DNA of 64,000 bases from Streptomyces sp. 11x1 (lineage in GTDB: Bacteria > Actinomycetota > Actinomycetes > Streptomycetales > Streptomycetaceae): assembly GCF_032598905.1 (NCBI RefSeq), contig NZ_CP122458.1, positions 9,821,001 to 9,885,000 of the forward strand, written 5' to 3'. The position numbers were made by a program, and so were the translations under genes. The notes under the pieces were generated by a model, which saw only the letters and a list, made by a program, of their open reading frames with translations, had not been told where the DNA came from and ran no database searches. Of the stretch, positions 4,069 through 33,542 are shown one piece after another. Positions within the stretch are counted from its first letter, which is position 1. Each line of letters starts with the position of its first letter.

Positions 4069-4074
4069 CGGCCG

Positions 4075-15298: not shown

Positions 15299-15370
15299 TC
15301 GATGCCCCCTCAGACCCGTGGATCCCTGATTCTCACTTCTCGACTCCAGCACGGAGTCACGGTCATGATC

Positions 15371-16419: not shown

Positions 16420-16495
16420 CCGGTTTCCCCCCGTTAATCCTCGAAATTTCTGATGGACACCCTCTTGACTCCTCACTGAGGCCGCTGTCATTCTC

Positions 16496-16696: not shown

Positions 16697-17836
16697 GTGT
16701 CAGCTGCCAGGAAGCGCGTCGCGGTGGTCGGCGTCGGAACGATGGGCAGCCAGGCCGCCTGGCGGCTGGCGGCCCGCGGCGCCGAGGTCGTCGGATACGA
16801 CCGATACGCTCCCGGCCACGACCGCAGCGCGGCCGGCGGTGAGACCCGCATCTTCCGCAGCGCGCACTTCGAGGATTCCCGGTACGTCCCGCTCCTCAAG
16901 CACGCCGACGCCCTCTGGGAGCAGCTCCAGCAGGAGACCGGCCGCGAGCTGCGCCGCCTGACCGGATGCCTGCTCATGGGGCCGACCGACCACCAGCAGA
17001 TGGCCACCGTCCTCGAGTCCATCGCCGACCACGACCTCGACCACGAGGTACTGGACGCCGACACGCTCGCCAAGCGCTTCCCGCAGTACCGCATCGAGGA
17101 CGGCGACGCGGCCGTACTCGACCGCCGCGCCGGGTTCATCCGCCCGGAGCTGACGATCCAGACCGCCGCGCGCCGCGCCGAGCAGCTGGGCGCCGTGATC
17201 CACCGCTACAGCACGGTCCGCGAGATCGTCCCCGTCGCCGGCGGCGTGGAAGTCCGCACCGACTCCGGCAGCGAGCGCTTCGACACCGTCGTCGTCACCC
17301 CCGGTCCCTGGGTCAACGACCTCCTGCCCGACCTGCCCTGGGAGGTGGAGGTCCGCCGGCTCGTCAGTGCCTGGTACGTGCCCACCGCCCCCGACGCCTG
17401 GTTCGGCGAGGAGCGCCCGGCGTTCATCCGCACCGCCCCCACCCACTGCTACGGCCTGCCCTCCCCGGACGGCATCTCGGTCAAGCTCGGACTGTCCCGT
17501 GCGCTGCATCGGCTCGCCGACGACCCCAACCAGCTGGATCGCACCGTGCGCCCGGACGAGCTGGACATCTTCTCCGAGCTGATCGGGCGATACCTGCCCG
17601 ACCTGCACCCGGACCCCACCCGCCTCTCCGTCTACATGGAGGGCTACACGGAGAGCAGCCGCCCCTTGGTCGGCCCCCTGCCCGGCGCCGAGAACGTCAT
17701 CCTCCTCGCCGGCTTCTCCGGTCACGGTTTCAAACTCTCGCCCGCCTTCGGCGACATCGCCGCGGACCTCGCGCTGGACGGCGCCTCGCCCCAGCCCATC
17801 GACTTCCTGTCCACCGTCGGCCGTACGGAGGCATGA
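16697..17836 (+). CDS. FAD-dependent DAO-family amine oxidase (N-methyltryptophan/sarcosine oxidase-like), copy 2
   Basis: 379 residues, first gene of the long amine operon. GTG 16697 follows ACGAAAGGAAAG, the same start context as copy 1 at 175. The GVGTMG nucleotide motif, GGETRIFRS segment and AGFSGHGFKLSP near the C-terminus place it with monomeric sarcosine oxidase/SolA. As in copy 1, the equivalent of the covalent-flavin cysteine region reads SVYMEGYTESS, with no cysteine. It should oxidise a secondary amine intermediate or the imported substrate. The next gene starts inside its stop codon (ATGA). Confidence 0.87.
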   Translation: MSAARKRVAVVGVGTMGSQAAWRLAARGAEVVGYDRYAPGHDRSAAGGETRIFRSAHFEDSRYVPLLKHADALWEQLQQETGRELRRLTGCLLMGPTDHQQMATVLESIADHDLDHEVLDADTLAKRFPQYRIEDGDAAVLDRRAGFIRPELTIQTAARRAEQLGAVIHRYSTVREIVPVAGGVEVRTDSGSERFDTVVVTPGPWVNDLLPDLPWEVEVRRLVSAWYVPTAPDAWFGEERPAFIRTAPTHCYGLPSPDGISVKLGLSRALHRLADDPNQLDRTVRPDELDIFSELIGRYLPDLHPDPTRLSVYMEGYTESSRPLVGPLPGAENVILLAGFSGHGFKLSPAFGDIAADLALDGASPQPIDFLSTVGRTEA

Positions 17837-18900
17837 CCATGAACGACACCACGCTCTCCGTCGGCACCCTGGTGGCCGAGCCGGGAACCAAGGCCCGCGG
17901 CACCGTCCGTGCCGACCTGGGCACTCTCACCGCGGACATTCCGCTGACCCTCGTCAACGGGACCCGCCCCGGCCCCCGGGTCGTCCTCACCGCGGGTGTG
18001 CACGGCGGCGAGTTCCCGCCCATCGACGCCGCCGTGCGACTCGCGGACGGCCTGGAACCCGACGCGGTGCACGGACAGGTGATCATCTGTCCGGTCGCCA
18101 ACCCACCCGCCGTGTACCAGGGTCGGCTCAACATCTCCCCGGTCGACGGCGTCAACCTCAACCGCGTCTTCCCCGGCGACGCGGCCGGCGGCCCCACCGA
18201 GCGGCTGGCCGCCTGGCTCTTCACCCACCTCCTCGACGGCGCCGACGTCTACATCGACCTGCACTGCGGCGGCATCGACCAGGTCCTGCGGGACTTCGTC
18301 GGCTACCGCATCACCGGTGACCCGGACCTGGACAAGGCGACGGCCGAACTGGCAGGCTCCTTCGGCATCGAGGACGTCATCCTCGGGCTGACGCCCGAGG
18401 GAGGCAACAGCCACGCGGCCGCCGCCCGCCGGGGCATCTCGGCGGTCCTCGTCGAGGTGGGCCAGCTCGGCCAGCGGGATGAGGCCACCGCCCTCCGCCG
18501 CGTCGACGGCCTGCTGACAGCACTTCGCCACCTGGGCGTCCTCGACCAGGACGGTTCCGCTCCGGCACCGATCCGCGAGTGGGTCTGGTCCGCCGGCGTC
18601 ACCGCCGAGGCCACCGGCCTGTGGTACCCGGAGTTCTCCTTCGACGCCGACATCATCGGTGAAGTCGCCGAAGGCGACCTCCTCGGCCGCATCATCGACC
18701 CGGTTGACGGCACGGAGCACACCGTCCACGCTCCGGCCGACGGACGGATCTTCTACGGCATGCACGGCCTCACCGTCGCCCCTGGCAAGGAACTCGCCGC
18801 CCTCGCGCTCCCATGGGACCCCGACACGGCAGAGCGGGCCGACACCCTCCGGGCCCCCGGCCTCGGTGCCGGATCCGATGAGGCGGATCCCCGCCCCTAG
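17833..18900 (+). CDS. Zinc-dependent deacylase of the succinylglutamate desuccinylase/aspartoacylase family, paralogue 1
   Basis: 355 residues. ATG 17833 overlaps the previous stop and has GGAG in front. The zinc site of the family is visible: HGGE (H57, E60) and the later histidine in DLHCGG (H144), with VNLNRVFPGD between them. The family removes N-acyl groups from amino acids or diamines: N-acetylaspartate, N-succinylglutamate, N-acetyl-2,4-diaminobutyrate. The C-terminal 100 residues form the usual beta domain (YPEFSFDADIIGEVAEGDLL). A second, more distant member lies at 24382, so two different acyl compounds or positions may be processed. Confidence 0.85.
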   Translation: MTMNDTTLSVGTLVAEPGTKARGTVRADLGTLTADIPLTLVNGTRPGPRVVLTAGVHGGEFPPIDAAVRLADGLEPDAVHGQVIICPVANPPAVYQGRLNISPVDGVNLNRVFPGDAAGGPTERLAAWLFTHLLDGADVYIDLHCGGIDQVLRDFVGYRITGDPDLDKATAELAGSFGIEDVILGLTPEGGNSHAAAARRGISAVLVEVGQLGQRDEATALRRVDGLLTALRHLGVLDQDGSAPAPIREWVWSAGVTAEATGLWYPEFSFDADIIGEVAEGDLLGRIIDPVDGTEHTVHAPADGRIFYGMHGLTVAPGKELAALALPWDPDTAERADTLRAPGLGAGSDEADPRP

Positions 18901-18977
18901 ACCCCCCATTTCAGCCGCCCCCCTTCCCACGTCCCCAGCCGCCCTTTCTCACGGCCAGTACCTCCAGGAGGCACCAA

Positions 18978-20084
18978 ATGAAAGACGCCCGAATAGACCG
19001 CAGACTGTTCCTGCGAGGAATAGGAGGGGTCACGGCGGGTGTCGCCGCCGCGACCACCCTCTCCGCCTGCGGTACCGGCACCAGCCGTGTGTCGTCCGGC
19101 GGGGGCAAGGGCGGCGGCAAGACGGTGGTCGTCCGTGACAGCGGCGGTTCGTATGGCGCGGCTCTGCAGAAGGCGATCTACACGCCGTTCACGCAGGAGA
19201 CCGGTATCCAGGTGAAGGTGCTGAACCTGGACGACGCCCCGCTGCTGGCGCAGATCAAGCAGGGCCGGCCGCAGTGCGACCTGATCAACAACTCGATGAT
19301 GTCGCACAACAAGTACGTCAAGCAGGAGGCGCTGGAGGCGCTGGACCTCGACCGGATCAAGAGCGTCAAGAGCGCGAAGATCCCCGAGGGCCAGGTCACC
19401 GACCATGCCATCGGGAACAGCTTCTACGGCGCCTGTATGGCGTACCGCACGGATGCTTTCGGGGGTAAGAAGCCCGAGTCGTGGGCGGACTTCTGGGACA
19501 CCAAGGCGTTCCAGGGTGGCCGTTCGATGTGCAACCCGGACGGTGACCTGCCGGAGTTGGAGTTCGCGCTGCTGGCCGACGGTGTTCCCATGGACAAGCT
19601 GTACCCGCTGGATGTGGACCGTGCTTTCAAGGTGCTGACGCGGCTGCGGGGTGACATCAAGAAGTTCTGGGACAGCGGCCCGCTCCCCGGTGTGCTGCTC
19701 AGCCGCCAGGAAGTGACGATGTCCACCGTGTGGGACGGCCGGATCGCCGATCTGGAGAAGCAGGGTGTCCCGGTCACCAGGCAGCTCAACGGGATGCGCC
19801 GCCAGTTCCAGGGCTACGCCATCGCCAAGGACGCGGCCAACGTGGACAACGCCTACAAGCTCATGGACTTCTCGCTGCGGGCGGAGAGCCAGGCCGCTCT
19901 GGCCAAGGCGTTCCCGTCGAACCCGTCCTCGCCGGTGGCTTACGCCAAGCTCACCGAGGAGGAGCGCAACGCGCTCGCGGGTGCGCCGCAGTACTACGAC
20001 AAGGGTTTCGACGCGGACATCGACTGGTGGCTGAAGAACGAATCGGCCGTCACCAAGCGCTGGTTGGAGTGGGCTCGTGGCTGA
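18978..20084 (+). CDS. Spermidine/putrescine-type ABC substrate-binding protein (Tat/lipoprotein)
   Basis: 368 residues. RBS AGGAGG precedes ATG 18978. The N-terminus carries a twin-arginine-like motif (DRRLFLRG) and a lipobox (LSAC), so it is probably exported folded and lipid-anchored. The body belongs to the PotD/SBP_bac_8 group (VVVRDSGGSYGAALQKAIYT, NSMMSHNKYVKQEALEALD). Residues contacting a polyamine cannot be verified by eye, so the ligand may be a modified amine. It overlaps the ATPase gene by 8 bases and is the receptor of the importer encoded at 20077-22979. Confidence 0.88.
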   Translation: MKDARIDRRLFLRGIGGVTAGVAAATTLSACGTGTSRVSSGGGKGGGKTVVVRDSGGSYGAALQKAIYTPFTQETGIQVKVLNLDDAPLLAQIKQGRPQCDLINNSMMSHNKYVKQEALEALDLDRIKSVKSAKIPEGQVTDHAIGNSFYGACMAYRTDAFGGKKPESWADFWDTKAFQGGRSMCNPDGDLPELEFALLADGVPMDKLYPLDVDRAFKVLTRLRGDIKKFWDSGPLPGVLLSRQEVTMSTVWDGRIADLEKQGVPVTRQLNGMRRQFQGYAIAKDAANVDNAYKLMDFSLRAESQAALAKAFPSNPSSPVAYAKLTEEERNALAGAPQYYDKGFDADIDWWLKNESAVTKRWLEWARG

Positions 20085-21216
20085 GTTCGGTATCGCCGTA
20101 CCGTCGGTGAAGGTGGCCGGCAACAAGCCGGCCACCGCGACCGGCAAATCGCTGTCGGTGGTGGCCCTGCGCAAGACCTACGGCGACGTCGTCGCCGTCG
20201 ACGAGGCGTCCATGGAGATCGCGGCGGGGGAGTTCGTCACCTTCCTGGGCTCTTCGGGGTCGGGCAAGACCACGACGCTGATGATGATCGCTGGGTTCTG
20301 TGAGCCCGACTCCGGCACCATCACCGTCGGGGACCGTGATGTGACGCGGCTGGCTCCGCAGAAGCGGGGTTTGGGCTTCGTCTTCCAGCAGTACCTGCTC
20401 TTCCCGCACATGACCGTGCAGGAGAACGTCGCGTTCCCGCTGACGCTGCGTGGTGTGTCGAAGGCCGAGATCCGCCGGCGGGTTGGGGAGACGCTGGAGA
20501 TCGCGGGCCTGTCCGGGTTCGGTGGGCGCAAGCCGCGTGAGCTGTCGGGTGGTCAGCAGCAGCGTGTGGCGTTGTGCCGGGCGCTGGTCTATCGCCCGCC
20601 GGTGATTCTCATGGACGAGCCGCTGGGTGCTCTGGACAAGAAGCTGCGCGATCAGCTCCAGGTGGAGATCAAGTCCATCCAGCAGGAACTGGGTCTGACG
20701 GTCATCTATGTGACGCATGATCAGGAAGAGGCACTGGTGATGTCGGACCGTATCGCGGTGATGCGCAACGGTCTGATCGAGCAGTTCGACACCCCCCGGG
20801 AGCTGTTCGAACGGCCGAGGACCCCCTTCGTCGCCGACTTCCTCGGCGCGGCCAACTTCCTGCCCGGACGCATCGAGCAGCACACCGACGAGCACACCCT
20901 GGTCCGCCTGGATGCCGGCGGCACTTTGCTGAAGGCGCGTCGCCACCAGCTGCCCTCCGGTACCGCGGTGAAGGTTGCGGTGCAGCCGGGCCGGCTGCGG
21001 GCCTGTGCCAGTGATGACGGGTTCTGTACGGGCACGGTCGAGATGGCCACTTACGTGGGCACTCTGGTCCGCGCCGGTGTGCGGGTCGACGGCGGTGACG
21101 GGCCGCTGCTGCGCCTGGAGGTCCCGGCCGGCCGGGGTCCGGTCGCCGGCGAGCGGGTCGGTATCAGCGCCGACCCTGAGGACGTCAACCTCTTCGCCGA
21201 CGAAAAGGCGGGGTGA
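20077..21216 (+). CDS. potA: Spermidine/putrescine-type ABC importer ATPase
   Basis: 379 residues. All ATPase motifs are present: Walker A GSSGSGKTTT, Q-loop FQQYLLFPH, signature LSGGQQQR, Walker B VILMDEPLGALD and the H-loop THDQEEA. A TOBE-type regulatory domain follows (about 290-375). GTG 20077 lies within the end of the binding-protein gene. It energises the two permeases that follow. A decayed copy of its H-loop part occurs at 1426-1567. Confidence 0.9.
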   Translation: MAEFGIAVPSVKVAGNKPATATGKSLSVVALRKTYGDVVAVDEASMEIAAGEFVTFLGSSGSGKTTTLMMIAGFCEPDSGTITVGDRDVTRLAPQKRGLGFVFQQYLLFPHMTVQENVAFPLTLRGVSKAEIRRRVGETLEIAGLSGFGGRKPRELSGGQQQRVALCRALVYRPPVILMDEPLGALDKKLRDQLQVEIKSIQQELGLTVIYVTHDQEEALVMSDRIAVMRNGLIEQFDTPRELFERPRTPFVADFLGAANFLPGRIEQHTDEHTLVRLDAGGTLLKARRHQLPSGTAVKVAVQPGRLRACASDDGFCTGTVEMATYVGTLVRAGVRVDGGDGPLLRLEVPAGRGPVAGERVGISADPEDVNLFADEKAG

Positions 21217-21219
21217 GTC

Positions 21220-22116
21220 ATGGCCGCCACCCTCACCGCGGGGGCTCCCGCCCGTCCGCGCAAGCTGCTGGCTTCGCGCCGGACGCGGGTCGGGATCTTC
21301 TACGCGCTGCCGGTCGTCGTCTATCTGCTGCTGCTGTTCGTCTACCCGATCTTCTCCACGCTGCTGCTCAGCCTGAAGGACGCCGACGGATCGTTCACCC
21401 TGCACTGGTACGCCGACGCACTGACCGGCGTGAACCTGTCGGTGCTGTTCACGACGCTGCGGATCTCCGCCGAGACAGCGGTGCTGAGTCTGGTGTTCGG
21501 GTTCGTCCTGGCCCAGGCCATCACCCGGCTCAAGCCCATCTGGGCGGGTCTGGCCATGCTGGTCGTGGTCGTCCCGCACTTCGTCAGCGCGCTGGTGCGT
21601 ACCTATGGCTGGATCATCATGCTGGGCGACAAGGGCCTGGTGAACGAGTCCCTGGCCGCGATGGCGGTCCCCGGGACGCCGTTCCAGCTGCTCTACAACG
21701 AGCTCGGTGTGGTCATCGGTACGACGTCGATGATGCTGCCGTACACGGTGCTGCTGCTGTACGGGGTGATGCGCGGGGTGGACCGCCGGCTGCTGGCGGC
21801 CGCGTCCAGCATGGGCGCGGGCAAGGTGACCATCTTCCGGCGGATCTATCTGCCGCTGGTCGCCCCGGGCCTGGCCAGTGCCGGACTGCTCAGCTTCATC
21901 CTGTCGCTGGGCTACTACATCACCCCGGCCCTGATGGGCGGCCCCAACCAGACGATGATCGCCACCCTCATCAACCAGCAGGTGACCAAGGAGAACCAGT
22001 GGAACGGGGCCGCCGCGCAGGGCGTGATCCTGCTGGTCCTCACCCTGGCCGGACTGCTGCTGGTCAAGGCCGTGACCTCGCTCGGCGCCAGCCGTAAGAA
22101 GAGGAGCGCCACATGA
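21220..22116 (+). CDS. potB: Spermidine/putrescine-type ABC permease, PotB-like
   Basis: 298 residues with six predicted membrane segments. The first is ALPVVVYLLLLFVYPIFSTL, and the EAA-type loop reads LAAASSMGAGKVTIFRRIYL. It starts 3 bases after the ATPase stop and its own stop overlaps the next start (ATGA). It is one half of the membrane channel of the importer. Confidence 0.9.
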   Translation: MAATLTAGAPARPRKLLASRRTRVGIFYALPVVVYLLLLFVYPIFSTLLLSLKDADGSFTLHWYADALTGVNLSVLFTTLRISAETAVLSLVFGFVLAQAITRLKPIWAGLAMLVVVVPHFVSALVRTYGWIIMLGDKGLVNESLAAMAVPGTPFQLLYNELGVVIGTTSMMLPYTVLLLYGVMRGVDRRLLAAASSMGAGKVTIFRRIYLPLVAPGLASAGLLSFILSLGYYITPALMGGPNQTMIATLINQQVTKENQWNGAAAQGVILLVLTLAGLLLVKAVTSLGASRKKRSAT

Positions 22117-22979
22117 TGGAACTGCGCAAGTCCCTCACCGGCCGCATCGCCCTCACCGCCGTGGCCACCGTCATCCTCCTCTTCCTCGCGCTGCCGATCG
22201 CCGTCATCCTCGTCACCTCCTTCAGCAACAACGCCTTCGCCGCCTTCCCGCCCGAGGCGTGGACGCTGAACTGGTACAAGGCCCTGTTCGCCGACGGCAG
22301 CAAGTGGCCCGCCGCGCTCTCCCTGTCCGCCTTGATCGCCGCCCTGAGCACCGTCTTCTCCCTCATCATCGGCGTCACCGCGGCGACCGCCCTCGTCCGC
22401 AGCGAACTCCCGCTGCGCTCCGCGGTCTTCGCCCTGGTCCTCGGCCCGCTGGTGATCCCGCAGATCGTCACCGCACTCGGCCTGTTCCTGCTCTTCGAGC
22501 CGGCCGCGATGCTGGGCAGCCCCATCGCCATCGCCCTCGGCCACACCGTCCTCGCCTCACCCATCGCGGTGCTGATCCTGATCGCGACCCTGCGCGGCAT
22601 CGACGAACGCCTCGAAGACGCCGCCGCCAGCATGGGCGCCGGCCGGCTCACCATCGCCCGGAAGATCACCTTCCCTCTCGCGGCACCGGGCATGATCGCG
22701 GCGGCGATCTTCTCCTTCATCACCAGCTTCGACGAGTTCTACATCTCCCAGTTCCTCTCCTCCGTCGACACCGTCACCCTCCCCGTCCAGGTCTACAACT
22801 CGCTCACCTTCGAGATCGACCCCAGCGTCACCGCGGTCAGCGCGATCCTCATCGCCTTCGCGATCCTCGCGCTCGGCCTGGTCGCCCTGGTGCGCTGGCT
22901 CGGCTCCGGACGGCAGGAATCCCTGCTCTCGGTCGAGAACACCGTCGGCGTCGCCAACCCGGGAGGCGAAGCCGTATGA
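22113..22979 (+). CDS. potC: Spermidine/putrescine-type ABC permease, PotC-like
   Basis: 288 residues, six membrane segments, EAA loop DAAASMGAGRLTIARKITFP and the PotC-like FSFITSFDEFYISQFL. RBS AAGAGGAG precedes ATG 22113. It completes the importer. The downstream aminotransferase begins inside its stop (ATGA at 22976), so uptake and the first catabolic steps are translationally linked. Confidence 0.9.
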   Translation: MMELRKSLTGRIALTAVATVILLFLALPIAVILVTSFSNNAFAAFPPEAWTLNWYKALFADGSKWPAALSLSALIAALSTVFSLIIGVTAATALVRSELPLRSAVFALVLGPLVIPQIVTALGLFLLFEPAAMLGSPIAIALGHTVLASPIAVLILIATLRGIDERLEDAAASMGAGRLTIARKITFPLAAPGMIAAAIFSFITSFDEFYISQFLSSVDTVTLPVQVYNSLTFEIDPSVTAVSAILIAFAILALGLVALVRWLGSGRQESLLSVENTVGVANPGGEAV

Positions 22980-24358
22980 CCACCGCCGCCGCTCAGCTGA
23001 CCGCGGCCACCGCTCAGCGGCACCTGCTGCTGCACATGACCGCCAACGGATCGCTCGGCGACGAGGGCGAAGACCTCCTCGTCGTCCAGCGAGGGGAGGG
23101 CCCGTACGTCGAGGACGCGGACGGCAGGCGCTACATCGACGGCCTGTCGGGGCTGTACTGCTGCCAACTCGGCTACTCCTACGGCCCCGAGTTCGCCGAG
23201 GCCGCCGAACGGCAACTGCGCGAGCTGTGCTACAGCCCGCTGTGGACCGGGTCCGCGCACCCCTCGGCCATCGAGCTCGCCGAACGGCTGTCCCGGATCG
23301 CCCCCGTCGACATCGAGCACACCTTCTTCTCGAGCGGCGGCGCCGAAGCCGTCGAGACCGCCTGGAAGATCGCCCGCCGCTACCACGCCCTGCGCGGGGA
23401 GCCGGGACGGGTCAAGGCTATCGCCCGGCGCGGCGCCTACCACGGACTGACCATCGGCACGCTGTCGTTCAACGACGACCCCGGGCTGACGGAGCCGTAC
23501 GGCCAGCCGGCGATCGACACCAGGTTCGTGTCGAACACCAACCGCATGGGCCTTGCAGCGGAGTTCGCGGACGACGAGGTGTACACGGCCTGGCTGCTCG
23601 CGGAGTTGGAGGCCGCGATCCTGACCGAGGGCCCCGAGACCGTCGCGATGCTGATCGCCGAGCCGGTGCAGAACCGGGGCGGCTGCATCACCCCGCCCCA
23701 GGGCTACTGGCAGGGCTTGCGGGCGCTCGCCGACCGGTACGGCTTCCTGCTCGTCGCCGACGAGGTCATCACAGCCTTCGGCCGGATCGGCGAGTGGTTC
23801 GGCGGTGACCGCTACGGCGCCCGCCCGGACATGGTCACTGTCGCCAAAGGCATCACGGCCGGATACGCCCCCCTGGGCGCGACCCTGGTCGGTACCAAGG
23901 TCACCGAGGTCATCAACCGCCCCGGCGCGGTCCTCAACCACGGCTACACCTTCGCCGGGCACCCGCTGAGCACGGCCATCGCCCTGCGCAACCTGGAGAT
24001 CATGGAGCGGGACCGCATCCTGGACAACGTCCGCGGTCTCCAGGGCAACCTGGCGAGGCGCATTGCGGCGCTCAAGGACCTGCCGATCGTCGGCGACGTC
24101 CGCGGCACCGGGTTCTTCTACTCCTGCGAACTCGTCGGCGACCTCGACGACGGCGCTTTCAGCGCCAAGGCCCGAACCGAACTCATCGGCGACCTGATCC
24201 CTCGTCGGCTGCGCGAGGCCGGCCTGCTGGCCCGCGTCTACAACCGCTCCGCGCCGCTGGTCCAGATCGCGCCCCCGCTGATCAGCGACCGCGCCGTCCT
24301 CGACCGTATCGCCGCGATCATCGCGGGCGTCCTCGCCGAGGCATCGGCCCGCATCTGA
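22976..24358 (+). CDS. Class III aminotransferase, putrescine/diamine-pyruvate type
   Basis: 460 residues, as in SpuC and omega-amino acid:pyruvate transaminases. Visible features: [16 protein letters not shown], the phosphate-site [34 protein letters not shown], the [19 protein letters not shown] aspartate segment and the PLP lysine in [14 protein letters not shown] (K291). It probably converts a primary amine such as putrescine or a deacylated diamine to an aldehyde, the substrate for the dehydrogenase at 25332. The association with a polyamine-type importer supports a diamine substrate; an exact assignment is not possible. Confidence 0.85.
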
Positions 24359-24381
24359 TCCACCTCTTGGAAAGGATCCAC

Positions 24382-25335
24382 ATGTACTCCATCGGTCCGC
24401 TGACCGTCGCCCCCGGCGAGCGCGCCCAGGGCCTGATCCCGGTCGGCACCAGCAGCTACGGCGTGGAGCTCGGCATCCCGCTGATCGTCGTCAACGGCGT
24501 CCAGGACGGCCCGGTCCTGTGTGTGGACGCGGGCGTGCACGGCGACGAGTACGACGGTCAGGAGGCCATCCGCCGCGTGCTCGCCGAGGTCGACCCGGCC
24601 ACCCTGCGCGGCACCGTCGTCGGCATCCCCTGCCTCAACACCCCGGCTTTCGAGGCGGCGGCCCGTGCCAGCGGCATCGACCACCTCAACCTCAACCGCA
24701 TCTTCCCGGGCGACGCGGAGGGCTCCTACTCCCAGCGTCTGGCCGCCACCTTCGTCGAGAAGGTCGTCCCCGCCGTCGACGCCGTGGTCGACCTGCACAC
24801 CGGTGGCGCCTACGGCGAGATCGCCCCGCTGGTCATCCTCCAGGGCGGCTACGAGGACCTGGCGACGGACCTGGCCCTCGCCGCAGGGCACGAGCTGGTC
24901 TGGAAGGGCGGCAAGTGGGGCGGCACGGTCCGCCACCCCGTCCTCGAAGCAGGCAAGCCCGCCATCACCATCGAGTGCGGCGGCGCCACCTACCGCGAGA
25001 CCAACGTCGAGCACCACATGCACTCGATCCGCAACATCCTGCGCAGCCTCGGCATGATCGACGGCGAGGCGGAGCTGCGGGACACCTACACGACGGTCTC
25101 CGGCACCTTCGCCCGCTCCGCCGCCGGCGGCTTCTTCGTCGCCCGCGCCGAGCCGGGAGAGACCTGCAAGGAAGGCGACCTGATCGCCACCATCACCGAC
25201 CACTACGGCAACACGCTGGAAGAGGTCATTGCCCCACAGGAGGGCATCGTGCTCTGGGTCCGCCGGATCCGCACGGTCCGCCCGGGCGACGAGGTCGTCA
25301 TCTTCGGCGAGGTGCTGGGAGAGATCCAGCCATGA
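24382..25335 (+). CDS. Zinc-dependent deacylase of the succinylglutamate desuccinylase/aspartoacylase family, paralogue 2
   Basis: 317 residues. ATG 24382 is preferred over an in-frame TTG at 24367 because GGAAAGGA lies between them as a ribosome site. The zinc ligands are visible as HGDE (H53, E56) and DLHTGG (H139), with [10 protein letters not shown] between. The C-terminal domain ([20 protein letters not shown]) resembles N-alpha-acetyl-diaminobutyrate deacetylase (DoeB)-like proteins more than aspartoacylase, judged by eye. It overlaps the aldehyde dehydrogenase gene by ATGA. It should remove an acyl group from the imported compound or an intermediate. Confidence 0.85.
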
Positions 25336-26807
25336 GCGACCAACTGCAACCGACCGAACTGCAACTGACCGAGCTGCTGATCGACGGCAAGCACGTCCCG
25401 GCCGCCGACGGACGCTTCTTCACGGTCCTCGACCCGTCGAACGACACGGCCATCGCCCAGGTGGCGCTGGCCGGCAAGGCGGACGTGGACCAGGCGGTGG
25501 CCGCCGCCCGCGCGGCCTTCACCGCTCCCGAGTGGTCCGGGATGCGTGCCGCCGACCGGGGCCGGATCCTGTTCCGCATCGCGGAGGCCATCCGCTACCA
25601 GAGCGAACGGCTCGCCCGCCTGGAGAGCCAGGACGTCGGCAAGCCGCTGCGCCAGGCGAAGGCCGATGTCGAAGCGGCCGCCCGCTACTTCGAGTTCTAC
25701 GCGGGCGTCGCCGACAAGCTCGGCGGCTCGACGGTCCCGCTCGGCCCCGGCCTGCTCGACTACACCGTCCGCGAGCCGATCGGCGTATCCGGCCACATCA
25801 TCCCGTTCAACTACCCGCTGCAGAACACGGCGAGGGGCTCCGCCCCGGCGCTGGCCGCCGGCTGCACGGTGGTGCTCAAGCCGTCCCCCGAGGCGCCGCT
25901 CACCCCGCTGGAGATCGGCAGGATCGCCCTTGAGTGCGGCCTTCCGCCGGGCGTGCTCAACGTGGTCCCCGGCGACGGCGAGACCGGCGCGGCCCTCGCC
26001 GGCCACCCGGACATCGACCAGGTCACCTTCACCGGGTCCGTGCCCACCGGCATCAAGGTCGCCCAGGCCGCCGCCGCCAACGTGGTGCCCTCCGTCACCG
26101 AACTGGGCGGCAAGTCGCCGGTCGTCGTCTTCGCCGACGCCGACTTCGACCTGGCGCTCGGCGCGGTAGCCGCCTCCGCGTTCGGCAACGCCGGGCAGAC
26201 CTGCTCGGCCGGCACCCGGCTGCTCCTCCAGCGCGGCGCCGAGGAGTTCCTGGACAAGCTCGTCGCGCACGTCGCGTCCCTGCGCCTCGGGCCGGGGCTC
26301 ACCGACCCGGACGTCGGCCCGCTGGTCGCCGCACGGCAAAGGGACCAGGTCCTTGGCTACCTGGAGTTGGCGCGGGAGGAGGGCGCCGTGGCGCGAGTCG
26401 GCGGAGGTGCCCCCGCCGACCCCGAACTGGCCGACGGCTACTACGTTCAGCCGACCGTGCTCACCGGACTGGACAACCAGGCCCGTTGTGCCCGCGAGGA
26501 GATCTTCGGCCCCGTTGTCACGGTCATCGAGTTCGACGACGTGGACGAGGCGCTGGAGATCGCCAACGACAGCCCGTACGGCCTGGCCTCGTACGTGTGG
26601 ACCCGCGACATCGACAAGGCGATGCGGCTGGCCGAGGGCATCCGTGCAGGCCAGGTCTATGTCAACGCCACCGGCGTCGGCACCGGCGTGGAGCTGCCCT
26701 TCGGCGGCTACAAGCACAGCGGCTGGGGCCGGGAGAAGGGTCTCGAAGGCCTGGCCAGCTACCTGCAGACCAAGAACGTCTGCATCGGGTTCGGGAACCG
26801 GTCATGA
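25332..26807 (+). CDS. NAD(P)-dependent aldehyde dehydrogenase, betaine/aminobutyraldehyde type
   Basis: 491 residues. Motifs: [33 protein letters not shown], the catalytic glutamate in [11 protein letters not shown], and the catalytic cysteine in [11 protein letters not shown] (C291), a context typical of betaine- and aminobutyraldehyde-type dehydrogenases rather than the GabD group. It should oxidise the aldehyde produced by the aminotransferase at 22976. ATGA overlaps occur on both sides. Confidence 0.88.
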
Positions 26808-27742
26808 GATACCGGACGCTCGGCGAGCGCGGCCCGATCGTCTCCGCGGTCGGCGTCGGCGGCAACAACTTCGGCGCCCGCCTCGACGAGGAGGGCACCA
26901 AGGCCGTCGTCCACGCCGCGCTCGACGCGGGGATCACTCTGTTCGACACCGCCGACATGTACGGCGGGGCCGGCGAACGGGGCGGCTCCCGCGGCGACGG
27001 CGAACGGCTCCTCGGTGCAGCGCTCAAGGGCAGCCGTGACCACGTGGTGCTGGCCACCAAGTTCGGCATGGAGATGAGCCGGGACGCCGACCTGTACGGT
27101 CCGCGTGGGTCCCGCGCCTACATCAGGTACGCGGTGGAGGCGTCACTGCGCCGGCTCGGCACCGACCGGATCGACCTGTACCAGTACCACGAGCCGGACG
27201 GCGTCACGCCGCTGGAGGAGACGCAAGCCGCGCTCCAGGAGCTGGTCCACGAGGGCAAGATCCGGTACATCGGCTGCTCCAACCTCCCCGCCGAGTACGT
27301 CACGGACGTTTTCGTGTCCACTCAGAACCGCTACCACCTGCTCGACCGCGGCGTGGAGCAGGACCTGATCCCGGCCTGCCTGCGCCACGGCGTAGGTCTG
27401 CTGCCGTACTACCCGCTGGCCAACGGCCTGCTCAGCGGCAAGTACCGGCGCGGTGAGGAGCCCCCGCCGGGCAGCCGGCTGTCCTGGCGGCAGGGCTGGC
27501 TCACCGACGCGGCCCTCGGCAAGGTCGAGGCGCTCACCGAGTACGGCGCCGATCGCGGCCTGACCCTCCTCCAGGTCGCGATCGGCGCACTGGCGGCCCT
27601 CCCTGCCGTCGGCTCCGTCATCTGCGGCGCCATGACCCCCGAACAGGTCACCGCCAACGCGGCGGCGGCCGACTGGATACCGAGCCCGGCCGACCTGGCC
27701 GTACTCGACGCGATCGTCGCCCCTGGCGAACGCGTCGTCTGA
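26804..27742 (+). CDS. Aldo/keto reductase
   Basis: 312 residues, an (alpha/beta)8 NADPH-dependent reductase. The catalytic tetrad can be placed: aspartate and tyrosine in [10 protein letters not shown], lysine in LATKFG and histidine in LYQYHEPD. The cofactor segment [13 protein letters not shown] is near the C-terminus. The start overlaps the aldehyde dehydrogenase stop by ATGA. It could reduce a reactive aldehyde or keto intermediate as an overflow route; the substrate is not known. Confidence 0.87.
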
Positions 27743-27789
27743 AGTCCCCACCCCCTGTTGAGAGAACCGCGAGAGCAAGGCTGGACACC

Positions 27790-28455
27790 ATGCGAGAGAT
27801 CGTCACCTTCGACGCCTACGCCACCCTGATCAACTTCGAGCTCGGTCCCACCACCCTGAAGGTTCTGGAGGACCGGCTCGACCTGGACAACCTGGATGTC
27901 GACGAGTTCCTCGACGACTTCCGCGTCATGCGCTTCCAGGCCGTCCTGGAGGCCTACCGCCCCTACCACGAGGTCCTGCACTCCAGCCTGCGCAACGCCA
28001 TGCGCCTGCACGGCCTGGAGTACCGCGAGACCGACGGCGAGGCCCTCGTGGACGCCGTCCCCACCTTCGGCCCCTGGCCGGAAGTCCCGGAGGCCCTGCG
28101 GAAGCTGAAGACCAAGTACGAGATCGCCATCATCTCCAACTCCGACGACAACCTGATCGCGCGGAACGTGGAGAACATCGGAGTCGAGTTCGACTACGTC
28201 ATCACCGCTCAGCAGGCCGGCGCCTACAAGCCGGACCGTCAGACCTTCAAGCACGCCTTCCGGACCATGGGTGTCGAGTCGTCGCAGGTCATTCACGTCG
28301 CCCAGGGTTGGGAGTACGACCACATCCCGACCCGCGACCTCGGCCTGAAGCGCCGCGTGTGGATCAACCGCTACGGCCGCAAGGGCAGCGCCGACTACCA
28401 GCCCTACGACGAGCTGCCCGACCTGTCGGGCCTGCCGAAGCTGCTCGGCTGCTGA
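27790..28455 (+). CDS. HAD-superfamily hydrolase, haloacid dehalogenase type II-like, copy 1
   Basis: 221 residues. HAD motif I is TFDAYATL with nucleophile D8, motif II is AIISNSDDN, the motif III lysine lies in AGAYKPDRQTF, and motif IV is near VAQGWEYD. The group includes L-2-haloacid dehalogenases and phosphatases. Nothing nearby suggests a halogenated substrate, so the activity is open. It always appears in front of a PuuB-like oxidase in this window: intact here, and as copy 2 in front of a pseudogene at 33543-34226. Confidence 0.85.
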   Translation: MREIVTFDAYATLINFELGPTTLKVLEDRLDLDNLDVDEFLDDFRVMRFQAVLEAYRPYHEVLHSSLRNAMRLHGLEYRETDGEALVDAVPTFGPWPEVPEALRKLKTKYEIAIISNSDDNLIARNVENIGVEFDYVITAQQAGAYKPDRQTFKHAFRTMGVESSQVIHVAQGWEYDHIPTRDLGLKRRVWINRYGRKGSADYQPYDELPDLSGLPKLLGC

Positions 28456-28503
28456 CCGACGGCGCAACGGCGAAACAGACCGAGAACACAGAGGACGCAC
28501 GCC

Positions 28504-29787
28504 ATGAAGCAGATCCCCTACTGGATGGACACAGCCCCCGCCCTGCCCGACCGTTCCGGGAAGGACCTGCCCGACGAGGCGGATGTGGTGGTGATCGGCG
28601 GCGGCCTCACCGGCCTGTCCACCGCTTACCACGCCGCCCGCAAGGGCGCCCGGGTCGTCCTGGTCGAGAAGGACCAGGTCGGTTCGGGAGCCTCCGGGCG
28701 CAACGGCAGCCACTGCAACCCCGGCATCACCATCAGCCCGGCCCAGGCCCGCCAGCGATACGGGCAGGAACGTGCTCGCGAGCTCTACGACGCGTTCCGT
28801 GTCGCAGTGGACCTCGTCGAGGAGATCGCGGTCAAGGAGAAGATCGACTGCGACTTCCACCGTGCCGGGCGCCTCGGCTTGGTCTGCAAGCCCAAGCACC
28901 TCGAGGGCATGCACGCCAAGCAGCGCGACCTGGCCGAGAACTTCGGCCACGAGACGGTCGTCCTGAGCAAGAGCGAGCTGCGCGCCGAGCTGGGCTCGGA
29001 CCACTACCACGGCGCCCTGCTCGACCCGCTCGGCGCAGCCCTGCACGTGGGCAAGTTCGTCGTCGGCCTGGCGGACGCCGCCGAGCGTGCCGGTGCCGAG
29101 ATCCACGAGCGCAACGCCGCCACCGGCCTCACCCGCCTCCCTGGCGGCGGCTTCGTGGTGGAGACCATGCGCGGCACCATCCGTGCCAAGCAGGTCATGG
29201 CGGCGACGGACGCCTACACCGACCAGTCGATGCCGTGGTTCCGCAAGCGGCTGATCAACGTCGGCAGCTTCATCATCGTCACCGAGCCGCTGGGGGAGGC
29301 GCGCGCCAAGGAGCTCATCCCCAACGGCCGCCTGCTGGTCGCCCACAAGAATGTCGGCAACTACATCCGTCTCACGCCGGACAACCGCCTCGCCTTCGGC
29401 GGCCGGGCCCGCTTCGCTCCCTCCAACCCGGCCTCCGACGTCAAGAGCGGTGACATCCTCAAGCGGGAGATGACCGAGATCTTCCCGCAGCTCGCGGGGG
29501 TGCGCATCGACTACGTGTGGGGCGGCATGGTCGGTTTCTCCTGGGACCGCATCCCGCACGCGGGCGAGGTCAACGGCCTCTACTACTCCATGGGTTACTG
29601 CGGCCACGGCGTCCAGATGGCCACGTACATGGGCCGCGCGGTCGCCGAGATGATGGACGGCAATCCGGAGGCCAACCCGATGCGCGGCTTCGGCTTCCCG
29701 AAGGTGCCTGTCCCCTTCTACAACGGCACTCCCTGGTTCCTGCCGTTCGGCGGCGCCTACTACAAGGCGAAGGACCGCCTGCTCTGA
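28504..29787 (+). CDS. FAD-dependent oxidoreductase, PuuB (gamma-glutamylputrescine oxidase)-like, copy 1
   Basis: 427 residues. RBS AGAGGA precedes ATG 28504. The N-terminus fits the family (YWMDTAPALPD), followed by the FAD motif VVVIGGGLTGLSTAYHAA and GSGASGRNGSHCNPGI. The C-terminal FAD region reads YYSMGYCGHGVQMATYMGR. In E. coli PuuB oxidises gamma-glutamylputrescine to the aldehyde; no glutamyl ligase (PuuA-type) gene is present here, so the substrate is probably a different N-substituted amine. A strong hairpin follows 27 bases after its stop and probably ends the operon. A degenerate copy lies at 32489-33537. Confidence 0.87.
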   Translation: MKQIPYWMDTAPALPDRSGKDLPDEADVVVIGGGLTGLSTAYHAARKGARVVLVEKDQVGSGASGRNGSHCNPGITISPAQARQRYGQERARELYDAFRVAVDLVEEIAVKEKIDCDFHRAGRLGLVCKPKHLEGMHAKQRDLAENFGHETVVLSKSELRAELGSDHYHGALLDPLGAALHVGKFVVGLADAAERAGAEIHERNAATGLTRLPGGGFVVETMRGTIRAKQVMAATDAYTDQSMPWFRKRLINVGSFIIVTEPLGEARAKELIPNGRLLVAHKNVGNYIRLTPDNRLAFGGRARFAPSNPASDVKSGDILKREMTEIFPQLAGVRIDYVWGGMVGFSWDRIPHAGEVNGLYYSMGYCGHGVQMATYMGRAVAEMMDGNPEANPMRGFGFPKVPVPFYNGTPWFLPFGGAYYKAKDRLL

Positions 29788-29813
29788 GCAGGTACCGACA
29801 CCGGCGACACCAC

Positions 29814-29845
29814 GGGGCCTTCCGCGCAGCCGCGCGGAAGGCCCC
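29814..29845 (+). terminator. Hairpin between PuuB-like gene and aspartase gene
   Basis: GGGGCCTTCCGCGC (29814-29827) pairs perfectly with 29832-29845 around the loop AGCC. The 14-bp stem is followed by a C-rich tract. It is a likely terminator or attenuator between the amine operon and aspA. Confidence 0.75.
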
Positions 29846-29874
29846 CCTGCCTCCCGAGAGAAGCCCTCAGCCTC

Positions 29875-31284
29875 ATGAACGCCGCCACCCGCATCGAGCA
29901 CGACCTGCTCGGCGACCGGGATGTCCCCGTCGACGCCTACTGGGGTGTGCACACCCTGCGTGCCACGGAGAACTTCCCGATCACCGGCACTCCCATCTCC
30001 GCCTATCCGCATCTGATCGACGCCCTGGCCGCCGTGAAGGAGGCCGCCGCTCTCGCCAACGAGGAACTCGGGCTGCTGGCGCCGGAGAAGGCCGCCGCGA
30101 TCGTCGCCGCGTGCCGGGAGATCCGTGACAGCTCGCTGCACGACCAGTTCGTCGTCGACGTGATCCAGGGCGGCGCCGGCACCTCGACGAACATGAACGC
30201 CAACGAGGTCGTCGCCAACCGGGCTTTGGAGTTGCTGGGGTTCGAAAAGGGCCAGTACCGGTACCTGCATCCCAACGAGGACGTCAACCTCGGTCAGTCG
30301 ACCAATGACGTCTACCCGACCGCCGTGAAGATCGCGACGGTGTTCGCGGTGCGCGGGCTGCTCAAGGCGATGTCGGTGCTTCAGGACGCGTTCGCGCGCA
30401 AGGCGGTCGAGTTCCGTGACGTGCTGAAGATGGGCCGGACCCAGTTGCAGGACGCGGTGCCCATGACGCTCGGGCAGGAGTTCTCGGCGTATGCCGTCAT
30501 GATCGAGGAGGACCGGTCCCGTCTTGCCGAGGCGGTCGAGTTGATCCATGAGATCAACCTGGGTGCGACGGCCATCGGCACGGGCCTCAATGCCCCTGCG
30601 GGGTACGCGGAGTCGGTGCGCCGCCACCTCGCCGAGATCACCGGTCTGCCGCTGGTCACCGCGGCCAACCTGGTCGAGGCCACCCAGGACTGCGGTGCGT
30701 TCGTGCAGATGTCGGGTGTGCTCAAGCGGATCGCGGTGAAGCTGTCCAAGAGCTGCAACGACCTGCGGCTGCTGTCGTCCGGGCCGCGCGCGGGCCTGGG
30801 TGAGATCAACCTGCCGCCGGTGCAGGCGGGTTCGTCGATCATGCCGGGCAAGGTCAACCCGGTGATCCCCGAGGTTGTCAACCAGGTCGCCTTCGAGGTC
30901 ATCGGCAACGACGTCACCATCACCATGGCTGCCGAAGCCGGACAGCTCCAGCTCAACGCCTTCGAGCCGATCATCCTGCACTCCCTCTCGGAGTCCATCA
31001 CCCACCTGCGGGCCGCCTGCTTGACCCTGGCCGAGCGCTGTGTGAACGGCATCACCGCCAACACCGAGGCACTGCGCCAGACCGTGGAGAACTCCATCGG
31101 CCTGGTCACCGCCCTCAACCCGCACATCGGCTACACGGCCGCCACCGACATCGCCAAGGAAGCCCTCGCCACCGGCCGGGGCGTGGCCGAACTCGTCTTG
31201 GAAAAGGGCCTGTTGCCCGCCGAGACACTCGCCGACCTGCTGCGGCCAGAGGCCGTGGCGGGCAGCGGTCAGGTGCTGGCCTGA
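29875..31284 (+). CDS. aspA: Aspartate ammonia-lyase (aspartase)
   Basis: 469 residues, full length for the fumarase/aspartase superfamily. It shows GGAGTSTNMNANEVVANRAL, NLGQSTNDVYPTAVK, TQLQDAVPMTLGQEF and the superfamily signature GSSIMPGKVNPVIPE containing the catalytic serine. It should cleave L-aspartate to fumarate and ammonia. The gene stands behind a terminator-like hairpin but in the same direction as the amine operon; if that operon yields aspartate, as in ectoine or diaminobutyrate breakdown, AspA would feed it into the TCA cycle. Confidence 0.92.
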   Translation: MNAATRIEHDLLGDRDVPVDAYWGVHTLRATENFPITGTPISAYPHLIDALAAVKEAAALANEELGLLAPEKAAAIVAACREIRDSSLHDQFVVDVIQGGAGTSTNMNANEVVANRALELLGFEKGQYRYLHPNEDVNLGQSTNDVYPTAVKIATVFAVRGLLKAMSVLQDAFARKAVEFRDVLKMGRTQLQDAVPMTLGQEFSAYAVMIEEDRSRLAEAVELIHEINLGATAIGTGLNAPAGYAESVRRHLAEITGLPLVTAANLVEATQDCGAFVQMSGVLKRIAVKLSKSCNDLRLLSSGPRAGLGEINLPPVQAGSSIMPGKVNPVIPEVVNQVAFEVIGNDVTITMAAEAGQLQLNAFEPIILHSLSESITHLRAACLTLAERCVNGITANTEALRQTVENSIGLVTALNPHIGYTAATDIAKEALATGRGVAELVLEKGLLPAETLADLLRPEAVAGSGQVLA

Positions 31285-33537: not shown

Positions 33538-33542
33538 CCGGC

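Follow-up and report, generated by a model that had tools for sequence, protein, structure and literature searches.

A 13-gene operon at positions 16,697 to 31,284 of the window, the 64,000-nucleotide stretch of Streptomyces sp. 11x1 DNA analysed here, forms with the gene groups upstream of it what we tentatively read as a catabolic system for azetidine-2-carboxylate-containing amino acids. Nicotianamine or a mugineic-acid relative gives the fullest fit, the chemistry being what we infer from the enzyme families. What the sequences show directly is which gene families are present, that their order is conserved and that the parts tend to occur together. Nicotianamine is a plant metal carrier, and the host is a soil Streptomyces with conserved import and enzyme genes.

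Gene order and extent of the locus

All 13 genes lie on the + strand at spacings of -8 to +87 bp, and profile and PDB comparisons gave the families listed earlier. Overlaps occur at five of the 12 junctions, and the earlier description of 13 kb of overlapping genes is therefore right in the genes and families but not true of every gene. The gabT- and gabD-like genes named with them are present but outside that span, upstream at 8,347 and 12,617. Among 14 other Streptomyces genomes with one locus each, 11 have the whole order from SolA through DAO2 intact, so that the synteny sought by the earlier note exists within Streptomyces and the gene set is not a chance assembly. L029 and L037 are cut by contig ends, and L027 differs upstream of deacylase 2. 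Thirteen loci extend far enough to cover the aspartase position. The gene is whole in only six of them, which counts against the azetidine reading; it is present as two partial pieces in one (L036) and unmatched in six.

Positions 19 to 14,056 encode another oxidase of the SolA type and an importer of the Nik/Opp type, besides gabD, an aminotransferase and a 2-hydroxyacid dehydrogenase, and the functional unit is probably larger than 13 genes, reaching to about position 19. A divergent IclR-family regulator (15667..16491, - strand; BhcR model 172 bits, cut-off 350) has an IclR gene at the same place in all 11 complete Streptomyces loci, and nine of these 11 have a second IclR gene, as does the window (14549..15388, -). 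The region also encodes a EutQ-like cupin (14181..14534, +; PF05899, 88 bits), found near 6 of the 80 DAO2 loci described below, a PucR-family regulator (6461..8155, -; PF07905, 121 bits) and an Lrp-family regulator (1594..2223, +).

Three upstream genes were compared between 15 operon-bearing and 27 operon-lacking Streptomyces, with identity limits set after the tables were seen. Copies of the FAD/FeS enzyme at 68% identity or more occurred in 14/15 and 1/27 genomes, respectively (p 4e-9), copies of the aminotransferase AT0 at 78% or more in 15/15 and 2/27 (p 1e-9), and copies of the Nik-type binder at 78% or more in 10/15 and 0/27 (p 2e-6); several of them lie far from the operon. The controls gave 5/15 and 2/27 for DUF2252 at 75% or more (p 0.04) and 3/15 and 0/27 for a kinase-aminotransferase fusion. 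The co-occurrence is partly confounded by relatedness, and the DUF2252 control leans the same way.

Oxidases, deacylases and importers

The SolA/MSOX-type FAD amine oxidase (16697..17836, +) scores 313.1 bits against a cut-off of 257 with NF008425, the SolA N-methyl-tryptophan oxidase model, which does not fix the substrate; its nearest PDB chain is sarcosine oxidase 7exs (222 bits). The upstream SolA-type oxidase (19..1314, +) also passes NF008425, with 277 bits. DAO2 (28504..29787, +) is an FAD oxidoreductase related to AmaA/OrdL (NF050086, 191 bits, cut-off 600), and a broken copy of it (32489..33534, -) stands beside a second HAD gene as four DAO2-like blocks in two frames, with residues 279-334 unmatched.

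The neighbourhoods of 80 DAO2 relatives from 36 genus-level groups were surveyed to at most 10 kb on each side, some stretches being cut by contig ends. The commonest neighbour was a HAD-II hydrolase (62/80), and the other counts were 51 for aldehyde dehydrogenase (L042 excluded), 28 for TtuC of the tartrate-dehydrogenase family, 27 for gabD, 25 for SolA, 19 for the Nik-type permease, 16 for AT0, 15 for D-2-hydroxyacid dehydrogenase and 9 for aspartase. Both TtuC copies tested passed TIGR02089 (512 and 522, cut-off 470.4). Two results of the survey count against the azetidine reading: no HAD gene was found near 18 of the 80 relatives, 14 of these proteobacterial, and the FAD/FeS enzyme was near none of the 80, occurring only in L045 outside them.

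The operon aspartase (29875..31284, +; TIGR00839, 702.3 bits, cut-off 681.2) is the highest scoring of three genomic copies above 650 bits. Aspartase adjoins the HAD/DAO2 core in three architectures, those of R. opacus pROB01, of Arthrobacter, Nocardia and R. koreensis, and of the Streptomyces type, which upholds aspartate as a likely product. The gabD-like semialdehyde dehydrogenase (12617..14056, +; TIGR01780, 578 bits, cut-off 646) has relatives in the clusters of R. koreensis, Arthrobacter and Rhodococcus JS3073 (64-71% identity) and in R. opacus (54%). The JS3073 cluster brings together AT0, SolA, HAD, gabD, the FAD/FeS enzyme, the aminotransferase and a Pot-family importer whose binder is 30% identical.

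The AstE/AspA-family deacylases 1 (17839..18900, +; PF24827, 105 bits) and 2 (24382..25335, +; PF24827, 97 bits) are, as the earlier note held, two distinct proteins of the AstE/AspA/DoeB fold. They are about 33% identical, and the metal-ligand motif HxxE...H is retained in each (HxxE at 55 and H142; HxxE at 53 and H139). In the PDB, deacylase 2 is closest to N-acetyl-diaminobutyrate deacetylase (100.9 bits), which ranks second for deacylase 1 (69.6 bits). The motif and these matches favour a sharpened form of the earlier idea, in which the DoeB-like enzymes would deacylate imported N-acyl-2,4-diaminobutyrate, transamination would yield aspartate semialdehyde, and its oxidation would supply aspartase with aspartate, no ectoine hydrolase being needed. 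According to the part of PMC5924519 available, the DoeB-DoeD-DoeC route passes through diaminobutyrate and then aspartate semialdehyde before it ends in aspartate, and in some ectoine clusters there are also a hydroxyacid dehydrogenase and a haloacid dehalogenase whose role is undefined. The route is nevertheless unlikely: both deacylases are far below the DoeB/EutE cut-off (83.0 and 114.5 against 402.7), DoeA/EutD is above cut-off nowhere in the genome, and the two FAD oxidases and the HAD enzyme are left without a task. The class III aminotransferase (22976..24358, +; PF00202; NF005102, 529 bits, cut-off 574) and the aldo-keto reductase (26804..27742, +; PF00248) are both missing from the Nonomuraea version L112, and the reductase, also unmatched in L109, is dispensable.

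The organising role given to deacylation of an imported N-acyl diamine is not supported, while the description as an unassigned catabolic operon is. The importer (86-91% identical) adjoins HAD and DAO2 in S. coeruleorubidus L093, a genome in which no deacylase-2 homolog was found at E <= 1e-10, and deacylase 2 occurs in only 12 of the 80 stretches fetched around DAO2, the other 68 being without it. The absences noted earlier were reproduced, PF00120 having seven matches in the genome but none in the window and the best match of the ectoine hydrolase model TIGR02993 lying outside it (75.1 bits, cut-off 613). With both the glutamyl-polyamine ligase and ectoine hydrolase absent from the window, neither the Puu nor the Doe/Eut pathway applies.

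The importer had been called polyamine-like, and this is not borne out by its binding protein (18978..20084, +). Eight solved chains score 150 to 97 bits with it, two of them unnamed and the mannopine, MotA, GABA-sensor and agropine binders among the others (4i1d 150, 3rpw 148, mannopine binder 5l9s 131, MotA 118, 4eq7 113, agropine binder 6hly 97). Spermidine/putrescine binders of the PotD/PotF type reach at best 63 bits (PotD 38), and the score with NF007048 is far under its cut-off (37.5 bits against 582). By chain similarity the protein thus resembles opine/GABA-group binders more closely than PotD. Its partners are a PotA/PhnT-like ATPase (20077..21216, +; TIGR03265, 346 bits, cut-off 457.7) and PotB-like (21220..22116, +; 136 bits, cut-off 348) and PotC-like (22113..22979, +; 128 bits, cut-off 326) permeases.

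SolA-type enzymes oxidise N-alkyl amino acids. This, the opine-type relatives of the binder and the recurrence of aspartase in the clusters are in keeping with the import of opine-like or Amadori-like N-alkyl aspartates, which the FAD oxidases would split into aspartate and an aldehyde or keto acid, aspartase and the aldehyde dehydrogenase finishing the two halves. Such conjugates are improbable substrates, as they need neither HAD-II, the commonest DAO2 neighbour, nor the tartrate-family dehydrogenases, nor the pair of GABA-type aminotransferase and gabD.

The upstream importer consists of a Nik/Opp-type binding protein (2545..4068, +) and a fused permease with NikB-like and NikC-like halves (4075..5934, +). 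The binder is below the nickel (Opp5A_nikA, 211 bits against 600) and staphylopine (CntA, 66 bits against 800) cut-offs, and its relatives adjoin DAO2 in L086 and L088. In R. opacus and in L052, L053, L054 and L061, HAD-DAO2 and Nik/Opp-type genes stand together with a cation-diffusion-facilitator (CDF) exporter (R. opacus, TIGR01297, 218, cut-off 82); the R. opacus cluster also has an ArsR metalloregulator (79, cut-off 55). Its own Nik/Opp binder is again below the cut-offs (253 against 600 for nickel, 76 against 800 for staphylopine). Neither the R. opacus CDF nor the ArsR protein has a match in the window or the preceding 20 kb, and only 4 of the 80 DAO2 loci have a CDF exporter nearby, which counts against the azetidine/nicotianamine reading.

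The HAD hydrolase and the proposed azetidine pathway

The HAD type II hydrolase proposed to open the azetidine ring (27790..28455, +) scores 129.7 bits with TIGR01428 (cut-off 125.4). Its best PDB match is L-azetidine-2-carboxylate hydrolase (3smv/8ywo/9v14, 93.6 bits), the next distinct enzyme being the dehalogenase 8hp5 (75). HAD2 (33543..34259, -), about 76% identical to it, matches the two nearly equally (86.7 and 84.4). In a tree that used 203 residues of the characterised hydrolase, this enzyme and 8hp5 share a branch (length 1.41) between the window-type and the R. opacus/Arthrobacter-type HADs and within neither, and orthology of the operon HAD to it was rejected. From this placement and the HAD2 scores, sequence leaves the choice between azetidine and halide undecided, and the substrate may differ between the two groups of HADs.

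According to the part of PMC8016842 available, azetidine-2-carboxylate hydrolase yields 2-hydroxy-4-aminobutyrate, which is then transaminated (in Aspergillus by the GABA route), and an acetyltransferase aids detoxification in Aspergillus. A HAD enzyme with GABA-type transamination repeats this logic, and an acetyltransferase gene is near 21 of the 80 DAO2 loci. Both would fit the detoxification and assimilation of the free plant toxin only, the oxidases acting on other substrates, but this reading is quite improbable, as it has no need of the two amine oxidases, the aspartase or the Nik/Opp-type importer, all of which recur with HAD. Most improbable is catabolism of polyamines or acetyl-polyamines, to which the Pot-type annotation, the depositors' title 'Polyamine' for 4eq7, aminotransferase and aldehyde dehydrogenase families that serve polyamines too, and similarly annotated polyamine-induced S. 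coelicolor genes (part of PMC5403932) point, since the binder scores and the absence of the ligase from the window oppose it and HAD, aspartase and the tartrate-family enzymes are left over.

In the azetidine pathway, the substrate would enter by the opine-type importer, the Nik/Opp-type importer or both. SolA and DAO2 would cut the 3-amino-3-carboxypropyl arms at their C-N bonds to give aspartate semialdehyde, which the aldehyde dehydrogenase (25332..26807, +; TIGR01804, 499 bits, cut-off 668.6) may oxidise to aspartate, and aspartase would release fumarate and ammonia. By analogy with azetidine-2-carboxylate hydrolase, HAD-II would hydrolyse the ring to 4-amino-2-hydroxybutyrate. This could be converted to malate, expected in the D form if HAD inverts, by gabD and AT0, a GABA/acetylornithine-type aminotransferase (8347..9720, +; start probably about 100 bp downstream). 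Malate would be oxidised by the FAD/FeS 2-hydroxyacid dehydrogenase (YdiJ/GlcD-like; 9591..12620, +; start uncertain; 436 bits, cut-off 1350), and in relatives by tartrate-dehydrogenase-family or NAD-dependent D-2-hydroxyacid dehydrogenases. The Streptomyces-type cluster adds the two deacylases, the aldo-keto reductase and the class III aminotransferase, perhaps to handle substrate forms that are N-acylated or hydroxylated; nicotianamine has no acyl group, so its breakdown would not account for the deacylases, which counts against this reading. The lack of orthology of the HAD, the binder scores below cut-off and the name of 4eq7 also count against the azetidine reading. That bacteria take up and consume nicotianamine and mugineic-acid phytosiderophores with this gene set, the oxidases and HAD feeding D-malate and fumarate into central metabolism, is possible but doubtful. 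A literature search found no described nicotianamine-breakdown gene set for comparison.

Comparison with known systems

The Puu gamma-glutamyl-polyamine pathway shares a DAO-family oxidase, an aldehyde dehydrogenase, an aminotransferase and a gabD-like enzyme with the window, which differs in having no ligase gene and no PotD/PotF-type binding protein. The ectoine DoeA-B-C-D and EutD-E systems are alike in the DoeB-like deacylase, class III aminotransferase, aldehyde dehydrogenase and aspartate product, whereas the window has no ectoine hydrolase, two divergent deacylases and, in addition, two FAD oxidases, HAD, aspartase and an opine-type importer. Mannopine, agropine and GABA importers provide some of the closest solved relatives of the operon binder (MotA, the agropine binder and GABA binders), although the similarity is partial (97-131 bits). 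Metallophore import of the staphylopine/nicotianamine type (Cnt/Nik ABC) resembles the upstream importer in its Nik/Opp family and the R. opacus-type relatives in their added CDF exporter, but the window and R. opacus scores are below the family cut-offs; to our knowledge, Cnt/Nik systems import metal and do not break down the ligand. For the azetidine-2-carboxylate hydrolase route (Pseudomonas A2C, Aspergillus AzhA), the part of its description available mentions no amine oxidase, aspartase or ABC importer, and the window HAD forms a separate clade, but the route is like the window in combining a HAD-superfamily hydrolase with subsequent transamination and GABA-type assimilation.

The operon and its relatives in Streptomyces

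Family searches assigned thirteen genes on the forward strand (16,697-31,284; gene spacings of -8 to +87 bp) to, in order, a SolA-type oxidase, AstE/AspA deacylase 1, a binding protein, PotA, PotB, PotC, a class III aminotransferase, AstE/AspA deacylase 2, an aldehyde dehydrogenase (ALDH), an aldo/keto reductase (AKR), a type II HAD hydrolase (HAD), the FAD amine oxidase DAO2 and aspartase, and thereby confirmed the families and coordinates of the gene set described in the earlier note. Both deacylases have an intact metal-ligand motif. Upstream, on the opposite strand, are two genes of the IclR family, and a promoter and terminator scan gave no signal above chance. The window comes from a Streptomyces genome of 10.67 Mb (2 contigs), and deacylase 1 finds its best named relatives in Streptomyces.

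A search with deacylase 2 was positive in fifteen of 150 Streptomyces genomes, the window's own included. Of the 14 other loci, 11 preserve the gene order from SolA to DAO2, two are cut by contig ends and one differs. A whole aspartase lies downstream in only 6 of the 13 informative loci, and one locus (L033) has an additional SolA copy of 70% identity. The enzymes around the binding protein show 75-100% identity across these loci, deacylase 1 being looser at 61-93%. The binding protein, matched in 12 of the 14, falls into two classes relative to the window's copy, with 58-59% identity in six loci and 80-92% in the other six, and this split amid conserved enzymes makes it seem that the import module (18,978-22,979, forward strand) was swapped within otherwise conserved operons.

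Just downstream of aspartase, at 32,489-34,259 on the reverse strand, a second type II HAD gene with an intact frame (HAD2, 33,543-34,259) is followed by a broken DAO2 copy with four similar blocks in two frames and the middle missing, and the two resemble a HAD-DAO2 pair that was duplicated and has since decayed. The oxidase/DAO/HAD trio is repeated on the reverse strand roughly 13-9 kb ahead of the window (6966-11126 of the preceding stretch, L132) as SolA-like (31%), DAO-like (29%) and type II HAD (39% identity with that of R. opacus) genes, with a gene that by eye resembles RidA in between. A phosphotransferase (APH) domain is fused to a class III aminotransferase at 36,287-39,490 (forward strand), and an aminotransferase gene adjoins an APH-like gene (by eye) at 16064-19730 of L132; we take such APH/class III aminotransferase genes to resemble hydroxylysine-kinase/phospho-lyase pairs.

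Upstream genes and their co-occurrence with the operon

Upstream of the operon are a second SolA-type oxidase (19-1,314), a Nik/Opp-type binding protein with a fused permease (2,545-5,934; scores under the family cut-offs), an Lrp gene between these two, and the GABA/acetylornithine-type aminotransferase AT0, an FAD/FeS 2-hydroxyacid dehydrogenase and gabD (together 8,347-14,056), with a PucR gene among the second SolA/Nik/AT0 group. The permease gene (4,075-5,934, forward strand) holds NikB-like and NikC-like halves in a single fusion, and R. opacus queries gave no match for a Nik-type ATPase beside it. In 6 of 11 complete loci gabD is immediately upstream of the operon.

Co-occurrence was counted in 42 Streptomyces genomes, comprising all 15 that bear the operon and 27 that lack it, of which 20 came from the 135 deacylase-2 negatives and 7 were judged negative by a deacylase 1 search that also detects deacylase 2. 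With identity limits chosen after the tables had been seen, AT0 (at least 78%) was found in 15/15 operon-bearing against 2/27 lacking genomes (one-sided Fisher p 1e-9; in-frame TGA in the G306 match), the FAD/FeS enzyme (at least 68%) in 14/15 against 1/27 (p 4e-9; the G304 match spans residues 2-724 only and that of G427 has an in-frame TGA) and the Nik-type binder (at least 78%) in 10/15 against 0/27 (p 2e-6), the first two counts not being independent because the genes adjoin. Two controls, a DUF2252 gene (at least 75%; 5/15 against 2/27, p 0.04) and a kinase-aminotransferase fusion (3/15 against 0/27), lean the same way, so relatedness adds some bias. In three genomes (G416, G410, G427) the FAD/FeS gene is separated from the operon by at least 120 kb or sits on a different large contig, and the Nik-type binder is at least 150 kb away in G393, G304 and G412. 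By the co-occurrence of these three genes the upstream gene groups probably belong to the same system as the operon, and gene groups that stand apart in some genomes are thereby linked, whatever the exact substrate.

Neighbourhoods of DAO2 relatives

The best 80 of 581 confirmed DAO2 relatives in named genomes were compared over up to 10 kb on each side, some flanks being shortened by contig ends and bit-score limits being set after the tables had been seen. Near them were HAD-II in 62/80, ALDH in 51/80, TtuC (tartrate-dehydrogenase family) in 28/80, gabD in 27/80, SolA in 25/80, a GNAT acetyltransferase in 21/80, a Nik-type permease in 19/80, AT0 in 16/80, D-2-hydroxyacid dehydrogenase in 15/80, deacylase 2 in 12/80, aspartase in 9/80, a cation-diffusion-facilitator (CDF) exporter in 4/80, deacylase 1 in 3/80 and the FAD/FeS enzyme in 0/80; deacylase 1 and SolA are undercounted in Streptomyces-type loci, since in the window they precede DAO2 by 9.6-10.7 kb and 10.7-11.8 kb and so reach the limit of the 10 kb flank or fall outside it, and no weight is given to their absence. 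Counted by genus-level group (n=36), the same 80 gave HAD in 27, gabD in 17, TtuC in 16 and aspartase in 6. Within these loci HAD accompanies gabD in 26/27 cases, aspartase in 9/9, TtuC or D-2-hydroxyacid dehydrogenase in 27/29 and the Nik-type permease in 14/19, and 14 of the 18 loci without HAD are proteobacterial. GNAT stands shortly before DAO2 in many loci of Pseudomonas, Variovorax, Bradyrhizobium and Azospirillum type (among L095-L126), several of them without HAD. A EutQ-like cupin of 117 aa (14,181-14,534, forward strand) recurs near DAO2 in Streptomyces and Proteobacteria (6 of these 80).

Three architectures recur. The first, on R. opacus pROB01 and in relatives (L052-L054, L061), combines SolA, gabD, aminotransferase, GNAT, CDF exporter, Nik/Opp-type binder, HAD, DAO2, permeases, ATPases, ALDH, ArsR and aspartase. 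The second (Arthrobacter, Nocardia, R. koreensis) has gabD, AT0, SolA and an amino-acid ABC importer beside HAD, DAO2, ALDH and TtuC, sometimes with aspartase and Nik genes. The third, the Streptomyces type, also occurs in Lentzea, Saccharothrix, Micromonospora (L109, without AKR, the contig stopping before the aminotransferase position) and Nonomuraea (L112, without aminotransferase and AKR). In Leucobacter and Microbacterium, DAO2 and ALDH adjoin counterparts of the Nik-type binder (48-49%) and permease of the window, with HAD and TtuC close. A 30.7 kb stretch of Rhodococcus JS3073 carries AT0, SolA, HAD and a Pot-family importer (binder 30%) together with gabD, the aminotransferase and the FAD/FeS enzyme, and no deacylase matched in it. 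HAD contexts on plasmids of Roseomonas, P. syringae, A. vitis and A. tumefaciens contained no cluster of the operon's kind and were uninformative. Deacylase relatives in Cytobacillus and Pukyongiella lie within Opp-type clusters without oxidases or HAD. In S. coeruleorubidus (L093) the importer (86-91% identity) stands beside HAD and DAO2, and a search of its genome for deacylase 2 gave no homolog at E <= 1e-10; L113 is not such a case, since a second locus in its genome has deacylase 2 at 96%. By this comparison oxidase, HAD and ALDH are the shared core, often with a 2-hydroxy acid route and sometimes with aspartate, and deacylation is an addition. The earlier note's reading is partly supported: its catabolic operon stands, but deacylation as the organising step is not supported, the core being kept without deacylases.

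Candidate substrates

Judged throughout from gene families and neighbourhoods, the operon is read as an accessory set of catabolic genes, conserved and most likely acting on amino-acid conjugates of the azetidine or a related type, the boldest candidates being nicotianamine or mugineic acids. HAD-II hydrolases of this kind yield 2-hydroxy acids, and azetidine-2-carboxylate is to our knowledge their sole non-halogen natural substrate. Both HAD (27,790-28,455; 93.6 bits) and HAD2 (86.7 bits) have their top PDB match in the solved azetidine-2-carboxylate hydrolase, ahead of the dehalogenase 8hp5 (75.3 and 84.4 bits). HAD would hydrolyse the azetidine ring to 2-hydroxy-4-aminobutyrate, its D form being assumed from the inverting HAD family. 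In the azetidine-2-carboxylate route this product is transaminated, and assimilation in Aspergillus requires the GABA route (PMC8016842). Such a product would account for AT0 and gabD as well as for the dehydrogenases of the 2-hydroxyacid or tartrate family, which would be expected to accept D-malate. Nicotianamine consists of azetidine-2-carboxylate and two 3-amino-3-carboxypropyl units, and oxidation of the C-N bonds of these units would release aspartate semialdehyde, which would account for ALDH, aspartase and the presence of two amine oxidases. The Nik/Opp-type importer and, in the R. opacus architecture, the CDF exporter would fit a substrate that carries metal.

Several observations weigh against this substrate. 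In a HAD tree of 85 rows the azetidine hydrolase groups with a dehalogenase; their shared branch is long and falls between the window-type HADs and those of the R. opacus/Arthrobacter type, the hydrolase belonging to neither group. The window-type group includes stand-alone plasmid HADs. The deacylases are without a place in the nicotianamine route. The Nik/Opp-type scores under the cut-offs, in the window and in R. opacus, and the whole aspartase in only 6 of 13 informative Streptomyces loci also count against it. The R. opacus CDF exporter and ArsR gene had no match in the window or the preceding 20 kb.

One rival is diaminobutyrate. Breakdown of ectoine as first put was rejected, the deacylases scoring far under the DoeB cut-off and ectoine hydrolase being missing; the altered, diaminobutyrate form stays alive because some ectoine clusters contain a haloacid dehalogenase and a hydroxyacid dehydrogenase, both unexplained (PMC5924519). 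The polyamine reading was put aside, chiefly on binding-protein scores and the lack of a glutamyl-polyamine ligase in the window: the closest solved chains are 4i1d (150 bits), 3rpw, a mannopine binder, MotA, two GABA-sensor type constructs, 4eq7 and an agropine binder (97 bits), whereas spermidine/putrescine binders by name reach at most 63 bits. The depositors' title of 4eq7 is 'Polyamine', and we take it to be a GABA-binding protein of Agrobacterium. The importer is by these scores not of the PotD type, and even with another exact substrate the polyamine annotation would give way to an amino-acid/opine-type one. A metal link through P-type ATPase/copper genes beside DAO2 on Phyllobacterium and Novosphingobium plasmids is not general and is not relied on, a heavy-metal ATPase query matching near only 4 of the best 80 of 581 DAO2 loci.

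Among the matches listed from the open literature on azetidine-2-carboxylate hydrolase, nicotianamine catabolism and phytosiderophore degradation, no set of genes for breaking down nicotianamine or mugineic acids was found, and the accessible text of a tobacco Arthrobacter study (santhopine, nicotine) gave no tie to an operon-type cluster. Grass roots secrete mugineic acids for iron and some soil microbes degrade them, the taxa and genes being called unknown in 2021 in PMC7786132, in which other candidate phytosiderophore-metabolism genes were proposed in P. fluorescens. If the mugineic-acid reading is true, HAD-II, DAO2, SolA, aspartase, the GABA-type aminotransferase and a tartrate-family/2-hydroxyacid dehydrogenase would form a testable marker for such breakdown, usable in Streptomyces, Rhodococcus and Arthrobacter and perhaps also in some Proteobacteria.
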